From positions 1-64,000 of the forward strand of contig NZ_BBRK01000006.1 in NCBI RefSeq assembly GCF_002090115.1: a stretch of 64,000 nucleotides of DNA, in the 5' to 3' direction. Below, in pieces: positions 34,993-38,952 of the stretch. The position numbers were made by a program, and so were the translations under genes. The stretch is from Demequina sp. NBRC 110054. GTDB lineage: Bacteria; Actinomycetota; Actinomycetes; Actinomycetales; Demequinaceae. Each line of letters starts with the position of its first letter. Positions within the stretch are counted from its first letter, which is position 1. The notes under the pieces were generated by a model that was not told the DNA's origin, did not search any database, and worked only from the letters and a program-made list of their open reading frames with translations.

Positions 34993-35375
34993 ACCACGCT
35001 CTCGGCGAGCACCTCGAGCGCGCGGTGGCGCTGCTCGTACGGGACGAAGAGGTGGTCGTGCTTGGCGCCGGCCACGACGTTGCAGGCGATGCCCGCGTCC
35101 GCGAGCGCCGTCGAGAAGGCCGCGGTGAGACCCACCGCGTCGAGCGACGAGTGCACCTCAAGCGTGATCCATGCCGACTCGAACTCGTGGTCGAGCCGGA
35201 GGTTGGTCGCCGTCGCGAGGTCGACGACGATCGAGATCCCCTCGTCCTCGACCATCGTCGCGACGGGCGTCACCCCCCTCGGCACGGCGGGCACGGTCGC
35301 CCAGACGTAGCGTCCCTCGTTGAGCCGAGGGTTCATGCCGCCGAGGAGCAGCTCGAGATCGTCGATGCCTGACAT
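34989..35375 (-). CDS. ACT-domain protein (COG3602-like)
   Basis: 128 residues with two ACT-like modules: MNPRLNEGRYVWATVP and a second half with AWITLEVHSSLDAVGLTAAF...CNVVAGAKHDHLFVP. The family is predicted to bind small ligands such as amino acids. Coupled to the antiporter gene, so it may sense a ligand for it (inference). TAGGCT (35382-35387) lies exactly 6 nt before ATG 35375. Confidence 0.8.
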   Translation of the reverse strand: MSGIDDLELLLGGMNPRLNEGRYVWATVPAVPRGVTPVATMVEDEGISIVVDLATATNLRLDHEFESAWITLEVHSSLDAVGLTAAFSTALADAGIACNVVAGAKHDHLFVPYEQRHRALEVLAESVV

Positions 35376-35434
35376 GACCCCAGCCTAGGGACTCGAGCCG
35401 CGGAAATGGCAGGGAGTGCCCGGGGATTCGCAAG

Positions 35435-35491
35435 GGACGATGCGGCACGTGGTCCAGGACGAAGCGGCCGGGGTGGGCGAGGGACGATGCG
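35435..35491 (+). repeat. three-unit GGACGATGCG cluster
   Basis: Exact GGACGATGCG at 35435-35444 and 35482-35491, with a degenerate GGACGAAGCG at 35457-35466 between them; units start 22 and 25 bp apart. Lies in the 219-bp gap between the radical-SAM and ACT genes, just before the G-rich repeat. Confidence 0.75.
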
Positions 35492-35507
35492 GTGAAAGGT
35501 GCAAGGT

Positions 35508-35592
35508 CGGGGCCTGGTCCGGGGCCGGGGCCTGGTCCGGGGCCGGGGCCTGGTCCGGGGCTGGGGCTGGGGCCGGGGCCGGGGCTGGGGCC
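35508..35592 (+). repeat. G-rich tandem repeat with strong G-quadruplex potential
   Basis: About three copies of the 18-bp unit GGGGCCTGGTCCGGGGCC run into a 6-bp GGGGCT/GGGGCC array. From 35557 to 35590 the plus strand has six GGGG runs separated by 2-nt loops. It begins 3 nt after the stop codon of the minus-strand radical-SAM gene, so that gene's mRNA would be C-rich here and the G-strand is its template. Confidence 0.85.
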
Positions 35593-35594
35593 TG

Positions 35595-36845
35595 TCAGAA
35601 GAGCGTGGCCGGGGCGGCGATGCCGGCACGCGCGAGCTCAAGCTCGACCAGGTTCGTCTCGTTCCCCGCCTGGCGGGCCTTCACGTTCCCTCGGTCGGCG
35701 CGCCCCATCGCACCGTCGGCGTCGGCGCCGCGCACGACGCGCGCCTCTGTCCCGACCGCCCGTGTGCGCCTCCACTCCCCCTCGCGATCGCGACCGGTCG
35801 AGGGCCCGGCCCCGCACGCCTCCGAAGAAGCCGAGGCCGAGGCGGTCCCCGTCACCGCGGAGGACGCGACGCCGCCGGTGTTCTCGTCGAGGAACGCGCG
35901 GTCGAGGCGGTGCGCGCGGATGAGCGGCTTGATGCGCGCGGCGAGTTCGCGCCTGTAGCCCTTCGGCGCGTACGCGCCGTCGCCGTACAGCGCGCGGTAG
36001 CGGGGCGTGAGGTCCGGGCGGTGGGTGTTGAGCCACCGCGCATACCACTCCTTGACGCCCGGTCGCAGGTGGAGCGCTGTGTAGGTGACGGCGGTTGCCC
36101 CCGCGTCCTTGATGCGACCGAGCGCCGCGTTGAGGTACTCCTCACTGTCGGTGAGGAACGGCAGGATCGGCATCATGAAGACGGTGACGTCGAAGCCCGC
36201 GCCTGCGGCCGCGGACACCGTGGCGAGCCGCGCGGCGGTCGTGGGCGTTCCCGGCTCGATGGTCTGCTGGAGGTCGTCGTCGAAGATCGCGATCGACATC
36301 GCGAGGTCCACGGGCACCCTCGTGGCGGCCTCGGCGAGGAGCGGGAGGTCGCGCCGCAGGAGCGACCCCTTCGTGAGGATCGAGAACGGCGTGCCCGAGT
36401 CCGCGAGCGCCGCGATGATCCCCGGCATGAGCCGGTAGCGCCCCTCGGCGCGCTGATACGGATCCGTGTTCGTGCCGAGGGCGACGTGCTCGTGCGACCA
36501 GCTGGGCCGCGACAGCTCTCGCCTGAGCACCTCGGCGATGTTCGCCTTGACGATCAGCTGCGAGTCGAAGTCCCGCCCCGCGTCGAGCTCGAGGTACTCG
36601 TGGCTGGGCCTCGCGAAGCAGTACACGCACGCATGGCTGCAGCCTCGATACGGGTTGATGGTCCACGTGAACGGGACCACGGAGGACTCGCCGACGCGAT
36701 TGAGCGCGCTCTTGGCGGCGATCTCATGGAAGACGATGCCGTCGAACTCGGGGGTGCGGACCGACCGGATGAGGTTGCTCATCCGCGCGAGGCCCGGCAG
36801 CGCGTCGGGCGCCTCCGCCTTGAGCGTCTGGCCGTTCCACCTCAT
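35595..36845 (-). CDS. Radical SAM protein, Rv2578c / SplB-like family
   Basis: 416 residues. The 4Fe-4S motif is CSHACVYC (about 69-76) inside NPYRGCSHACVYCFARPSHEYL, the signature of the Rv2578c family related to spore photoproduct lyase. The core ends near residue 310; the last ~105 residues are Ala/Ser/Arg-rich and look disordered. A perfect LexA-type palindrome covers the promoter, so the gene is probably SOS-induced and may act on DNA damage (inference). ATG 36845 stands 6 nt after the hexamer TCGAAT inside the palindrome. The start of a G-rich repeat follows directly after its stop. Confidence 0.85.
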   Translation of the reverse strand: MRWNGQTLKAEAPDALPGLARMSNLIRSVRTPEFDGIVFHEIAAKSALNRVGESSVVPFTWTINPYRGCSHACVYCFARPSHEYLELDAGRDFDSQLIVKANIAEVLRRELSRPSWSHEHVALGTNTDPYQRAEGRYRLMPGIIAALADSGTPFSILTKGSLLRRDLPLLAEAATRVPVDLAMSIAIFDDDLQQTIEPGTPTTAARLATVSAAAGAGFDVTVFMMPILPFLTDSEEYLNAALGRIKDAGATAVTYTALHLRPGVKEWYARWLNTHRPDLTPRYRALYGDGAYAPKGYRRELAARIKPLIRAHRLDRAFLDENTGGVASSAVTGTASASASSEACGAGPSTGRDREGEWRRTRAVGTEARVVRGADADGAMGRADRGNVKARQAGNETNLVELELARAGIAAPATLF

Positions 36846-36850
36846 GCCCT

Positions 36851-36872
36851 GATTCGAACACGTGTTCGAATC
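36851..36872 (-). promoter_or_regulatory. LexA/SOS box over the radical-SAM gene promoter
   Basis: Core TCGAACACGTGTTCGA (36854-36869) equals the actinobacterial SOS consensus CGAAC-N4-GTTCG, and symmetry extends to 22 bp. It covers the probable -10 and ends 5 nt before ATG 36845, so LexA binding would block initiation. Confidence 0.85.
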
Positions 36873-36946
36873 CGGGTCAAGCGACGCGCCGCGCTCGTGG
36901 AAGGGCGTCAGCGGCGCCCGCCGTCGCGCACGCGGGGCAGGGAAGC

Positions 36947-37046
36947 GTCAGGCGAGGACTGTGCAGGTCAGGCGAGGACGGTGCAGGTCAGGCGAGGACG
37001 GTGCAGGTCAGGCGAGGACGGTGCAGGTCAGGCGAGGACGGTGCGG
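36947..37046. repeat. five 20-bp tandem repeats over a gene's 3' end
   Basis: Unit GTCAGGCGAGGACGGTGCAG at 36947, 36967, 36987, 37007 and 37027; the first and last copies have one base change each. On the minus strand the last copy is the final codons and TGA stop of the GvpU-like gene; the other four are duplicated downstream of it. Confidence 0.95.
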
Positions 37047-37423
37047 CCGAGCGCGAAGCCCGTGACGTGCGCGATGTAGACGCGGTACCAGTCGATCGCG
37101 AAGCTGTGGTCGCCTGCGGCGATCTGGACGTCGCGGAGGTACAGCGAGTCCGGCACGGTGTCCGCGCGCTCCTCGAACTCGATCATGCCCTCGGTGGGGT
37201 CGTGCGCGAGGTCGCCCGCGAGCGCGGCGAGGGTCTCGATGCCGACGTCACCCGGGTGGCCGCCCGTGTTGTAGCGACCCCAGTACTCCCGCGCCGACAC
37301 GAGCTCGCCGGTGATGACGAGCCCGCCCGTGCTGAGGGTGAGTCCGACCGAGGACACGGTCGAGAGGGTGGTGGCCTTCGCAAGACCCTCGAGGGAGAGG
37401 GGCGACAGCTCTGTAGCGGACAT
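37028..37423 (-). CDS. GvpU-like protein (gas vesicle accessory family)
   Basis: 131 residues. The hydrophobic beta pattern STVSSVGLTLSTGGLVITGELVS followed by a C-terminal LRDVQI...DWYRVYIAHVTGFALG resembles GvpU proteins; this is by memory of the family pattern. No other gvp gene is in the window. GGAGG precedes ATG 37423 and TAGCGT (37454-37459) is a likely -10. The stop codon lies in the first unit of a 20-bp tandem repeat. Confidence 0.5.
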   Translation of the reverse strand: MSATELSPLSLEGLAKATTLSTVSSVGLTLSTGGLVITGELVSAREYWGRYNTGGHPGDVGIETLAALAGDLAHDPTEGMIEFEERADTVPDSLYLRDVQIAAGDHSFAIDWYRVYIAHVTGFALGRTVLA

Positions 37424-37527
37424 GCGGATACCTCCGTAGGGACGGTTTCCGTCACGCTAACAGCGAGGATCACACCGGGGAACGGGTAGGTGCGACACCC
37501 CACAACCGCTCACATCGGGCCCTTGCT

Positions 37528-37537
37528 GGACGATGCG
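37528..37537 (+). repeat. GGACGATGCG motif, intergenic single copy
   Basis: Exact 10-mer in the 175-bp gap between the GvpU-like gene and a GNAT gene. Nothing else is evident there apart from the TAGCGT promoter at 37454-37459. Confidence 0.7.
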
Positions 37538-37598
37538 GCGGCCACCGCGGGGCCAGGGCCGGGAGACGGGGTGCTGAAGTGAGGCGGACCGCCTGGCG

Positions 37599-38120
37599 TC
37601 AGCCCCTCGGGTCGCGCATCTCGACGACGTCGAGCAGCGCCCCCGTGCGGCTGAGCCGCCGGCCGCGCGCGACGATGTCCATGCCGAGCCGCTCGTAGAG
37701 GGCGATGTTGCCCTCCTCCTCGGCGCGCACGGTGCACGACAGCCCCTCGAGGCCGCCCGCCTGCGCGGTCTCGCGCAGCGCGGCGACCACGAACGAGGCG
37801 ATGCCCCTGCCGCGCGCCTCGGGCACCACTCCCAGACGCCCGAAGTAGCGGGTGCCGTCACCCGCGTCGTGATGCTTGACCATCGCGACGGCGACTCCGT
37901 CGAGGCGGGCGACGGCGACGTGCACGCCGTTGCCCATCTCCTTGGCGAGGGAGCGCGCGTTCTCGAGCATCGCACCGGCGGTCTGACCCTTGGCGGTGTA
38001 CTCGGCGAAGGCACGATGCATGACGTCGATCGCCTCGACCGCACCCTCGGGCGCGATGCTCAGCTCGATGTCGACCTGCGGGGCGCCCTCGGCGCTGCCA
38101 CGCTTCTTGGTTGCGTTCAC
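37599..38120 (-). CDS. GNAT-family acetyltransferase
   Basis: 173 residues with GNAT motif A LGVVPEARGRGIASFVVAAL (about 97-116) and GNIALYERLGMDI in motif B. Substrate unknown. GTG 38120 (VNATKKRG) is taken as the start; TATCGT lies 8 nt before it. Upstream in-frame sequence to 38162 lacks a ribosome site. Confidence 0.8.
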   Translation of the reverse strand: MNATKKRGSAEGAPQVDIELSIAPEGAVEAIDVMHRAFAEYTAKGQTAGAMLENARSLAKEMGNGVHVAVARLDGVAVAMVKHHDAGDGTRYFGRLGVVPEARGRGIASFVVAALRETAQAGGLEGLSCTVRAEEEGNIALYERLGMDIVARGRRLSRTGALLDVVEMRDPRG

Positions 38121-38202
38121 GAGGTGACACGATAACCCGGTCGCGCCGGGACCCCGGACCACGCCCCTCTTAGGCCTGGCAGATGTCCGCTTTGCGGGGC
38201 GC

Positions 38203-38952
38203 TCAGGCCCCCATCGCGAGCGCCACGGCGAGGCCAGCCATCACGGCGGCGATGACGCCGTCGAGCACCCTCCATGCGCCGGGACGGGACAGCGGCCCCG
38301 AGAGCAGCCGCGCGCCGTAGCCGAGCGCGAGGAACCAGACCACCGAGCCGCTCATCGCGCCCGCGGCGAAGATCCAGCGGAGGTCGCCATACGTCGACGC
38401 GACGGTTCCCATGAACAGCACGGTGTCGAGGTACACGTGGGGGTTGAGCCACGTCACGGCGAGGACCGCGAGGAGCGTCACACGCAGGGTCGATGGGGTC
38501 AGGGAGGGGGCGAGCGTCGTCGCGGCGCGGCGGGGATCACGGCTGGTGAGCTCGCTGCCGACGGCTCGGTGCCCCAGGCCCGCTTCCCCGACCGGCCCGA
38601 CACCTGCATCGTCCGAGGAGGCGCGCCGACCACCCGAGGCGACGCGCACATCGTCCACCTCGAGTGCCGCCCCCGCGGGCCGCCAGGCGCGCCGCGCGGC
38701 CACGACGGCGTAGCCGAGCAGGAACGCCGCCCCGCCCCACCGCGCGACGCCGACCAGCCAGGGCACGCTCAGGACCGCGGCCCCGACCCCGGAGACCCCC
38801 ACGGCGATGAGCACCGCGTCGGAGGCCGCGCAGATCGCCACGACCATCAGCACGTGCTCGCGGCGCAGCCCCTGACGCAGGACGAACACGTTCTGCGCGC
38901 CGATCGCGACGATGAGCGACAGGGAGAAGCCGAGCCCGGCGAGGTAGGTCAT
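38203..38952 (-). CDS. lysE: LysE-family basic amino acid exporter
   Basis: 249 residues with LysE hallmarks GFSLSLIVAIGAQNVFVLRQGL at the N terminus and TWLNPHVYLDT in the second half, six helices in total. The loop between helices 3 and 4 is enlarged by about 60 Ala/Gly/Arg/Ser-rich residues (~95-150). Exports lysine and/or arginine. TACCGT (38959-38964) lies 6 nt before ATG 38952. Divergent from its probable activator lysG. Confidence 0.9.
   Translation of the reverse strand: MTYLAGLGFSLSLIVAIGAQNVFVLRQGLRREHVLMVVAICAASDAVLIAVGVSGVGAAVLSVPWLVGVARWGGAAFLLGYAVVAARRAWRPAGAALEVDDVRVASGGRRASSDDAGVGPVGEAGLGHRAVGSELTSRDPRRAATTLAPSLTPSTLRVTLLAVLAVTWLNPHVYLDTVLFMGTVASTYGDLRWIFAAGAMSGSVVWFLALGYGARLLSGPLSRPGAWRVLDGVIAAVMAGLAVALAMGA

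Follow-up and report, generated by a model that had tools for sequence, protein, structure and literature searches.

The window, a 64,000-nucleotide stretch of DNA analysed as a whole, carries on its minus strand a gene for a radical SAM protein with a perfect palindrome just ahead of the start codon. The features of the locus, by position in the window, are:

35595-36845, minus strand: gene for an Rv2578c-family radical SAM protein of 416 amino acids with an ATG start (NF038135, 502.9 bits; PF04055, 60.9 bits)
35598-35612, minus strand: codons 412-416, PATLF, a Gln-less form of the family's C-terminal clamp-binding-like motif (alignment A1)
35661-35849, minus strand: codons 333-395, a low-confidence variable linker (pLDDT below 50; mainly gaps in the 32-member alignment A1)
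36618-36641, minus strand: codons 69-76, the CxxxCxxC cluster-binding motif CSHACVYC, whose three Cys are invariant across the family alignments
36851-36872, no strand: 22-bp perfect palindrome GATTCGAACACGTGTTCGAATC (sequence match)
36852-36857, minus strand: probable -10 hexamer TCGAAT, 6 nt before the ATG and overlapping the operator (sequence and family conservation)
36854-36869, no strand: probable LexA operator (SOS box) TCGAAC-N4-GTTCGA (genome-wide sites and conservation upstream of the family)
36875-36880, minus strand: probable -35 hexamer TTGACC, with a 17-nt spacer (sequence and family conservation)

The gene is of the Rv2578c type, as the sequence-only reading had proposed: the protein matched positions 1-316 of the 317 positions of NF038135 with 502.9 bits, above the curated cut-off of 430. 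The radical SAM superfamily domain (PF04055) scored 60.9 bits against a gathering score of 29.5, and CxxxCxxC is present, its three Cys being kept by every one of the 32 sequences of the hand-picked alignment A1 and the 54 of alignment A2. The score against NF033668 (PA0069 family), 228 bits, was below the cut-off of 360, placing the protein outside that family. The window copy resembles other NF038135 members in its full-length match over the cut-off and in the SOS box upstream, but it has a longer variable linker (416 amino acids in all) and a tail without Gln. Inteins interrupt 35 of 200 family loci, L058, L188, L217 and L225 among them, at the position immediately ahead of the third cluster Cys, and all 35 end in HN or HQ followed by that Cys. 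NCBIfam already models intein-bearing members (NF038136); no intein was found in the window copy. A phage origin was rejected, as 7 of 50,697 phage records matched, at 26-28% identity and with no more than 62% of the query covered.

The gene upstream, at 37028-37423, is on the same strand as the radical SAM gene and stops before the SOS box. That the box serves another gene was considered and rejected: in the direction of transcription 37028-37423 has already ended when the box is reached, which leaves 35595-36845 as the first gene behind it. The radical SAM gene is probably transcribed alone. The 131-residue product of 37028-37423 has no Pfam match, and no counterpart was found in the regions flanking the remaining 29 own-genus loci. 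Two tandem repeats border the gene: about 4.9 copies of a 20-bp unit at 36947-37044, directly upstream of the promoter and overlapping the end of the preceding gene, and a GC-rich repeat with an 18-bp unit at 35508-35592, directly downstream.

The sequence-only reading placed a perfect SOS box, within a 22-bp perfect palindrome, over the -10 of this gene. The span given for it, 36845-36872, begins at the A of the ATG, and the palindrome was recovered inside that span at 36851-36872, five bases from the ATG, with TCGAACACGTGTTCGA at 36854-36869. When the window was simulated 100 times with a first-order model, 11 of the simulated sequences contained a perfect palindrome of at least 22 bp; significance through length alone was therefore rejected and length was dropped as evidence. 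The 22-mer GATTCGAACACGTGTTCGAATC had no second match in the window at up to three mismatches, and none occurred in 100 shuffles. The resemblance of GTTCGAATCC to a tRNA T-arm raised the possibility of a T-arm remnant, which was rejected; ARAGORN detected no tRNA in the window, and Rfam gave no match in 35000-38500 at E of 0.1 or less.

On the minus strand the palindrome does cover the proposed -10, in the order TTGACC (36880-36875), 17 nt, TCGAAT (36857-36852), 6 nt and ATG. The usual family layout, TTGAC-17-TCGAAT-6/7-start codon, recurs in 85 distinct upstream regions, in which the right half of the box runs into TCGAAT and TTGAC stands at a fixed distance ahead of the box. Within these 85 regions, which were selected for a box of at least 10/12 matches at -23 to -25, each base of the -10 hexamer is 75-100% conserved and the TTGAC bases of the -35 are 65-98% conserved. 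The box lies farther upstream, at -40 to -82, in 12 of 114 regions. A generic promoter scan found no sigma-70-like site at the window promoter; the scan demands A at position 2 of the -10, and TCGAAT does not have it. The layout predicts a leaderless promoter that LexA would block.

The genome of 3,354,474 bases contains four perfect TCGAAC-N4-GTTCGA sites, which precede an imuB-like/dnaE2-like stretch, uvrA, recA and the window radical SAM gene. The imuB, dnaE2, uvrA, recA and ruvA genes were named by recognition of their translations, and lexA was identified with TIGR00498 (237 bits). Three one-mismatch boxes are upstream of lexA, in the interval shared with a divergent gene that is LysM-like by eye (L019, L021), and one is ahead of ruvA. 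One-mismatch sites number 13 in the genome; nine of these are away from lexA and ruvA, and the two of the nine whose flanks were translated are both inside coding ORFs. The shorter core CGAAC-N4-GTTCG occurs at six genome sites, compared with two for the backwards pattern, and its two extra sites are not beside recognised SOS genes. The window operator lies over a promoter and matches the sites at recA and lexA, as a LexA-regulon member should, and on this sequence evidence the palindrome core is very probably the LexA operator of the window gene.

Conservation of the box points in the same direction. Within 150 bp upstream, 112 of 137 family loci have a box that matches at 10 or more of its 12 positions, compared with 1.15 expected from first-order simulations; the 137 are the loci whose predicted start falls at the profile start, the others being left out and one duplicate pair (L040, L170) kept. 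With any start call, 141 of 185 distinct untruncated family proteins had such a box upstream. All 30 own-genus loci, the window included, have a perfect box. Three 150-bp control stretches per gene body gave boxes of that quality in 0 of 162 and 2 of 240 cases. The family loci are related and are not independent trials, and the chance figures should be read accordingly. In 24 of the other 29 own-genus loci, none of the four genes that neighbour the window gene was found in the flanks (about 1.5 kb per side), so the box stays with the gene and inheritance of the neighbourhood does not explain it. Eleven more distant actinobacterial homologues had no box of the window type (best 7-8 of 12 matches), and none of three box patterns was found upstream of the Legionella homologue. 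The loci were drawn from a first genome set in which 141 of 296 genomes matched, 34 of them over the family cut-off, and from which 30 and 60 loci were taken; a second set in which 40 of 59 genomes matched and the best 30 loci were kept; and a third search in which the best 80 of at least 580 confirmed candidate stretches were kept. The 185-protein count and the tail counts given below drop L050 (identical with L063, the window), L170 and the truncated L090.

That SplB-like genes can be under SOS control has been published before (PMC3323433, PMC8565304, PMC9380542). It was predicted in alpha- and betaproteobacteria (PMC3323433) and inferred from conserved motifs in Bacteroidetes (PMC8565304), and SplB-like genes were found in operons with ImuB-C domains (PMC3765255). 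In Streptomyces venezuelae, PMC9380542 reports LexA ChIP and about 20-fold mitomycin induction for the radical SAM gene vnz_31145; the window gene is similar by analogy, as a radical SAM gene that would be LexA-bound and mitomycin-induced. An Rv2578c-family gene serves as the integration site of a Streptomyces phage, and the authors of that study call a link to DNA repair speculative (PMC12924846). The literature search found no paper that links Rv2578c or PA0069 with LexA. We assume that Rv2578c itself belongs to the LexA regulon of Mycobacterium tuberculosis and that PA0069 of Pseudomonas aeruginosa is likewise under LexA control. The LexA control anticipated by the sequence-only reading is strongly supported by the other boxes in the genome, by conservation in the family and by the published S. 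venezuelae data, and judged by sequence it is near certain; a role of the window gene in DNA damage follows as likely.

The fold of the enzyme bears on what that role might be. An AlphaFold model of the window protein, built with the 54 sequences of alignment A2, had a mean pLDDT of 73.9, and 185 of its 416 residues scored 90 or higher. The cluster loop (69-73 and 75-85) and most of 333-416 were poorly modelled, and most of CSHACVYC had a pLDDT below 50. The top PDB matches of the model were spore photoproduct (SP) lyase chains, with Foldseek E values of 1.5e-6 to 1.2e-5 and VIA Z of 15.1-16.0 over 259-271 residues at 11-12% identity. A single-sequence search with the window protein gave no PDB match up to E of 10, and a profile of the 54 A2 sequences reached SP lyase chains at E values of 0.008-0.03. 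SP lyase is the nearest solved fold, and SOS-regulated COG1533 genes are named splB in the literature. These observations, together with the weak profile match, are what would be expected if the protein were a true equivalent of SP lyase that directly reverses thymine photoproducts in an organism that does not form spores.

The family-level evidence makes that equivalence improbable. TIGR04070 (spore photoproduct lyase, cut-off 400) did not match the window protein at E of 1e-3 or less, nor anything in its genome at E of 1e-20 or less. Cys140 is the H-donor of SP lyase, which is consistent with mutant titles among the matched PDB entries. In the alignment, FEAACTSD of SP lyase, the stretch that contains Cys140, falls on ALGTNTDPYQ of the family, and the Cys140 column is occupied by Thr (52) or Ser (2) in the 54 A2 sequences, the window protein having Thr; this comparison is made at 11-16% identity, with the cluster loop modelled at low confidence. 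No SASP match (PF00269) was obtained in the genome. Two proteins from other Actinomycetota, L327 and L328, are closer relatives of SP lyase, at 275 bits and still below the cut-off of 400. They keep Cys140, and neither an SOS box nor the tail described below was found for them. The window family is like SplB (TIGR04070; PDB 4fhc) in fold and in the CxxxCxxC cluster motif, but it has neither an equivalent of Cys140 nor the family match, whereas it has an SOS box and its relatives have a clamp-like tail. The protein therefore shares fold kinship with SP lyase, yet it is probably not an SP lyase, and spore-photoproduct chemistry by it is unlikely. The label SplB-like given by the sequence-only reading holds for the fold and fails at the level of the family model and Cys140. 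Its proposed activity on thymine photoproducts is unsupported, given the lack of a TIGR04070 match, the Thr or Ser in the Cys140 column and the absent SASP match, and its description of the organism as apparently not spore-forming agrees with the genome through that missing SASP match alone.

The same fold comparison leaves some room for an enzyme that LexA controls and that does not act on DNA, such as a radical SAM modification of tRNA, protein or a metabolite during the SOS response. Lipoyl synthase (Z up to 14.1), NifB (Z up to 12.9) and MiaB (by Foldseek) were weaker than SP lyase and still good fold matches; no substrate of the Rv2578c family, DNA included, is known to us. However, the genome's remaining perfect boxes all stand at DNA-repair genes and the family has clamp-like tails, and we regard a non-DNA substrate as unlikely, if less so than SP lyase chemistry.

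The C-terminal tail is a further feature of the family. According to PMC11139829, the beta-clamp-binding motif is Q-aliphatic-x-[LM]-[FL] or a six-residue form. Under this strict published definition, 74 of the 156 distinct family members from genera other than that of the window carry the motif in their last 12 residues, compared with 1 of 335 distinct neighbour ORFs. When Pro was tolerated at position 2 the count rose to 92 of 156, compared with 12 of 6288 other 12-residue stretches of the same family proteins. In the 32-member alignment A1, Gln and Leu after the variable linker are nearly invariant, but A1 was picked by hand after the tails had been seen and contains none of six proteins that have no such tail at all (L093, L095, L099, L104, L115 and L118, given as examples), so its near-invariant Gln is flattering. 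In the 54-sequence alignment A2, Leu alone is nearly invariant at the tail. The first tail pattern was also devised after viewing the tails; the count relied on here is that from the published definition.

Tails in the genus of the window are less canonical. The PATLF tail of the window protein does not fit the strict motif, and neither does any of the 29 own-genus proteins (3 of 29 fit the Pro-tolerant form); a hydrophobic pair is kept within the last five residues in 29 of 29, and Gln is mostly lost. Because the window tail and all 29 own-genus tails fall outside the motif, the clamp idea leans on the wider family. According to the review, LF alone can bind the clamp and the delta subunit has no Gln (AMSLF) (PMC11139829); weak clamp binding by the Gln-less PATLF tail is possible for this reason, by analogy.

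A conserved C-terminus could instead serve another partner or the stability of the protein and be no clamp tag. The own-genus tails, which keep just the terminal hydrophobic pair, would fit such a function, as would the 82 of 156 family members from other genera in which the strict motif is missing. The Arthrobacter protein recovered in the plasmid search described below (MRW start, QEPLF end) is probably a family member and so counts against the clamp motif; it is one of five other radical SAM proteins from that search (Arthrobacter, Paenibacillus, Bacteroides, Haladaptatus and Nostoc), none of which has the motif. Against this stand the position of a predefined motif (PMC11139829) at the extreme end of the protein, after a variable linker, in 74 of 156 family proteins as opposed to 1 of 335 controls, and its appearance in Proteobacteria as well (QLSLF, QLDLF, QLTMF). 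A function other than clamp binding is thus the less favoured reading of the tail, although it is the strongest of the alternatives considered here, and clamp tethering across the family is plausible from the sequences.

Proteobacterial relatives extend the comparison. Among the matches listed (40 of 78), 12 plasmid records were opened and 7 encoded PA0069-type proteins, all 7 of which had the strict motif, with the tails QLTMF, QLSLL, QLRLL, QLSLL, QLSLF, QLRLF and QLDLF; the QLTMF tail (L313) was missed by the script, was read by eye and fits the definition. In the alphaproteobacterial PA0069 copies, GTTC-N7-GTTC was found upstream of 4 of 6, a count made without a chance control; we take this pattern to be the SOS box of Alphaproteobacteria. 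The PA0069 family (NF033668) therefore has the same core as the window protein, with GTTC-N7-GTTC in those four copies and with QLxLL, QLxLF or QLTMF tails, but the window protein scores below its cut-off, and the N-terminus and type of box differ. Of the 11 more distant actinobacterial homologues, 1 had the strict and 10 the Pro-tolerant motif, and the two that were tested are PA0069 proteins by NF033668. These homologues have the tail without a window-type box, and the Legionella homologue showed none of the three box patterns, which means that the link between tail and box is not strict. On the plasmid of Legionella adelaidensis (L324), the PA0069 gene adjoins a gene for a PolX-type polymerase.

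Clamp binding has precedents in other damage-response factors. Mycobacterial ImuB function needs the clamp-binding motif QLPLWG (PMC10421592). ImuB and other clamp-binding SOS factors are damage-inducible, as the window gene is predicted to be; the protein is a different one, however, and clamp binding is a prediction here. In archaea, SplB-like genes lie next to nreB, in surroundings linked to PCNA, and this likewise puts an SplB-like enzyme in a sliding-clamp context; there, however, it is the Nre protein that bears the PCNA motif, which is less evident in NreB, and the mitomycin results concern NreA (PMC4929162). Among the papers listed, that article was the one that joins sliding clamps and SplB, and the literature search found no radical SAM protein with a clamp-binding motif. 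Judged by these searches alone, the tail is possibly new and undescribed in print.

Taken together, we consider it likely that the window gene is a damage-inducible radical SAM gene operated by LexA, with a product that acts on DNA and, in much of the family, a tether to the clamp. A LexA dimer would sit over the -10 and the spacer and so block RNA polymerase, with transcription predicted to start at or beside the ATG (leaderless). Upon DNA damage, RecA-triggered self-cleavage of LexA would turn the gene on along with recA, uvrA, ruvA and the imuB/dnaE2-like genes. Its protein would use CxxxCxxC to bind SAM and a [4Fe-4S] cluster, and damaged DNA is the most likely target of the 5'-deoxyadenosyl radical. 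Much of the family finishes in a disordered tail, with QLxLL, QLxLF or QPTLF at the end, that probably anchors the enzyme on the sliding clamp and would thereby direct it to forks or gaps. For the more specific proposal, we judge the case to be evenly balanced: the SOS-controlled Rv2578c/PA0069 proteins may be replisome-coupled repair enzymes that are induced by LexA, delivered by the clamp to stalled forks or gaps, and apply radical chemistry other than that of SP lyase to a lesion such as a crosslink or a bulky adduct.

The SOS operator and the clamp-like tail of many members together turn the repair question into a testable one: does the enzyme bind the clamp, and which lesion does it act on? 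The tail found in many relatives hints that the enzyme may be active at damaged replication forks and may not be a classic spore-repair enzyme. If this is true, radical SAM chemistry would gain a new setting, that of repair enzymes coupled to replication forks.
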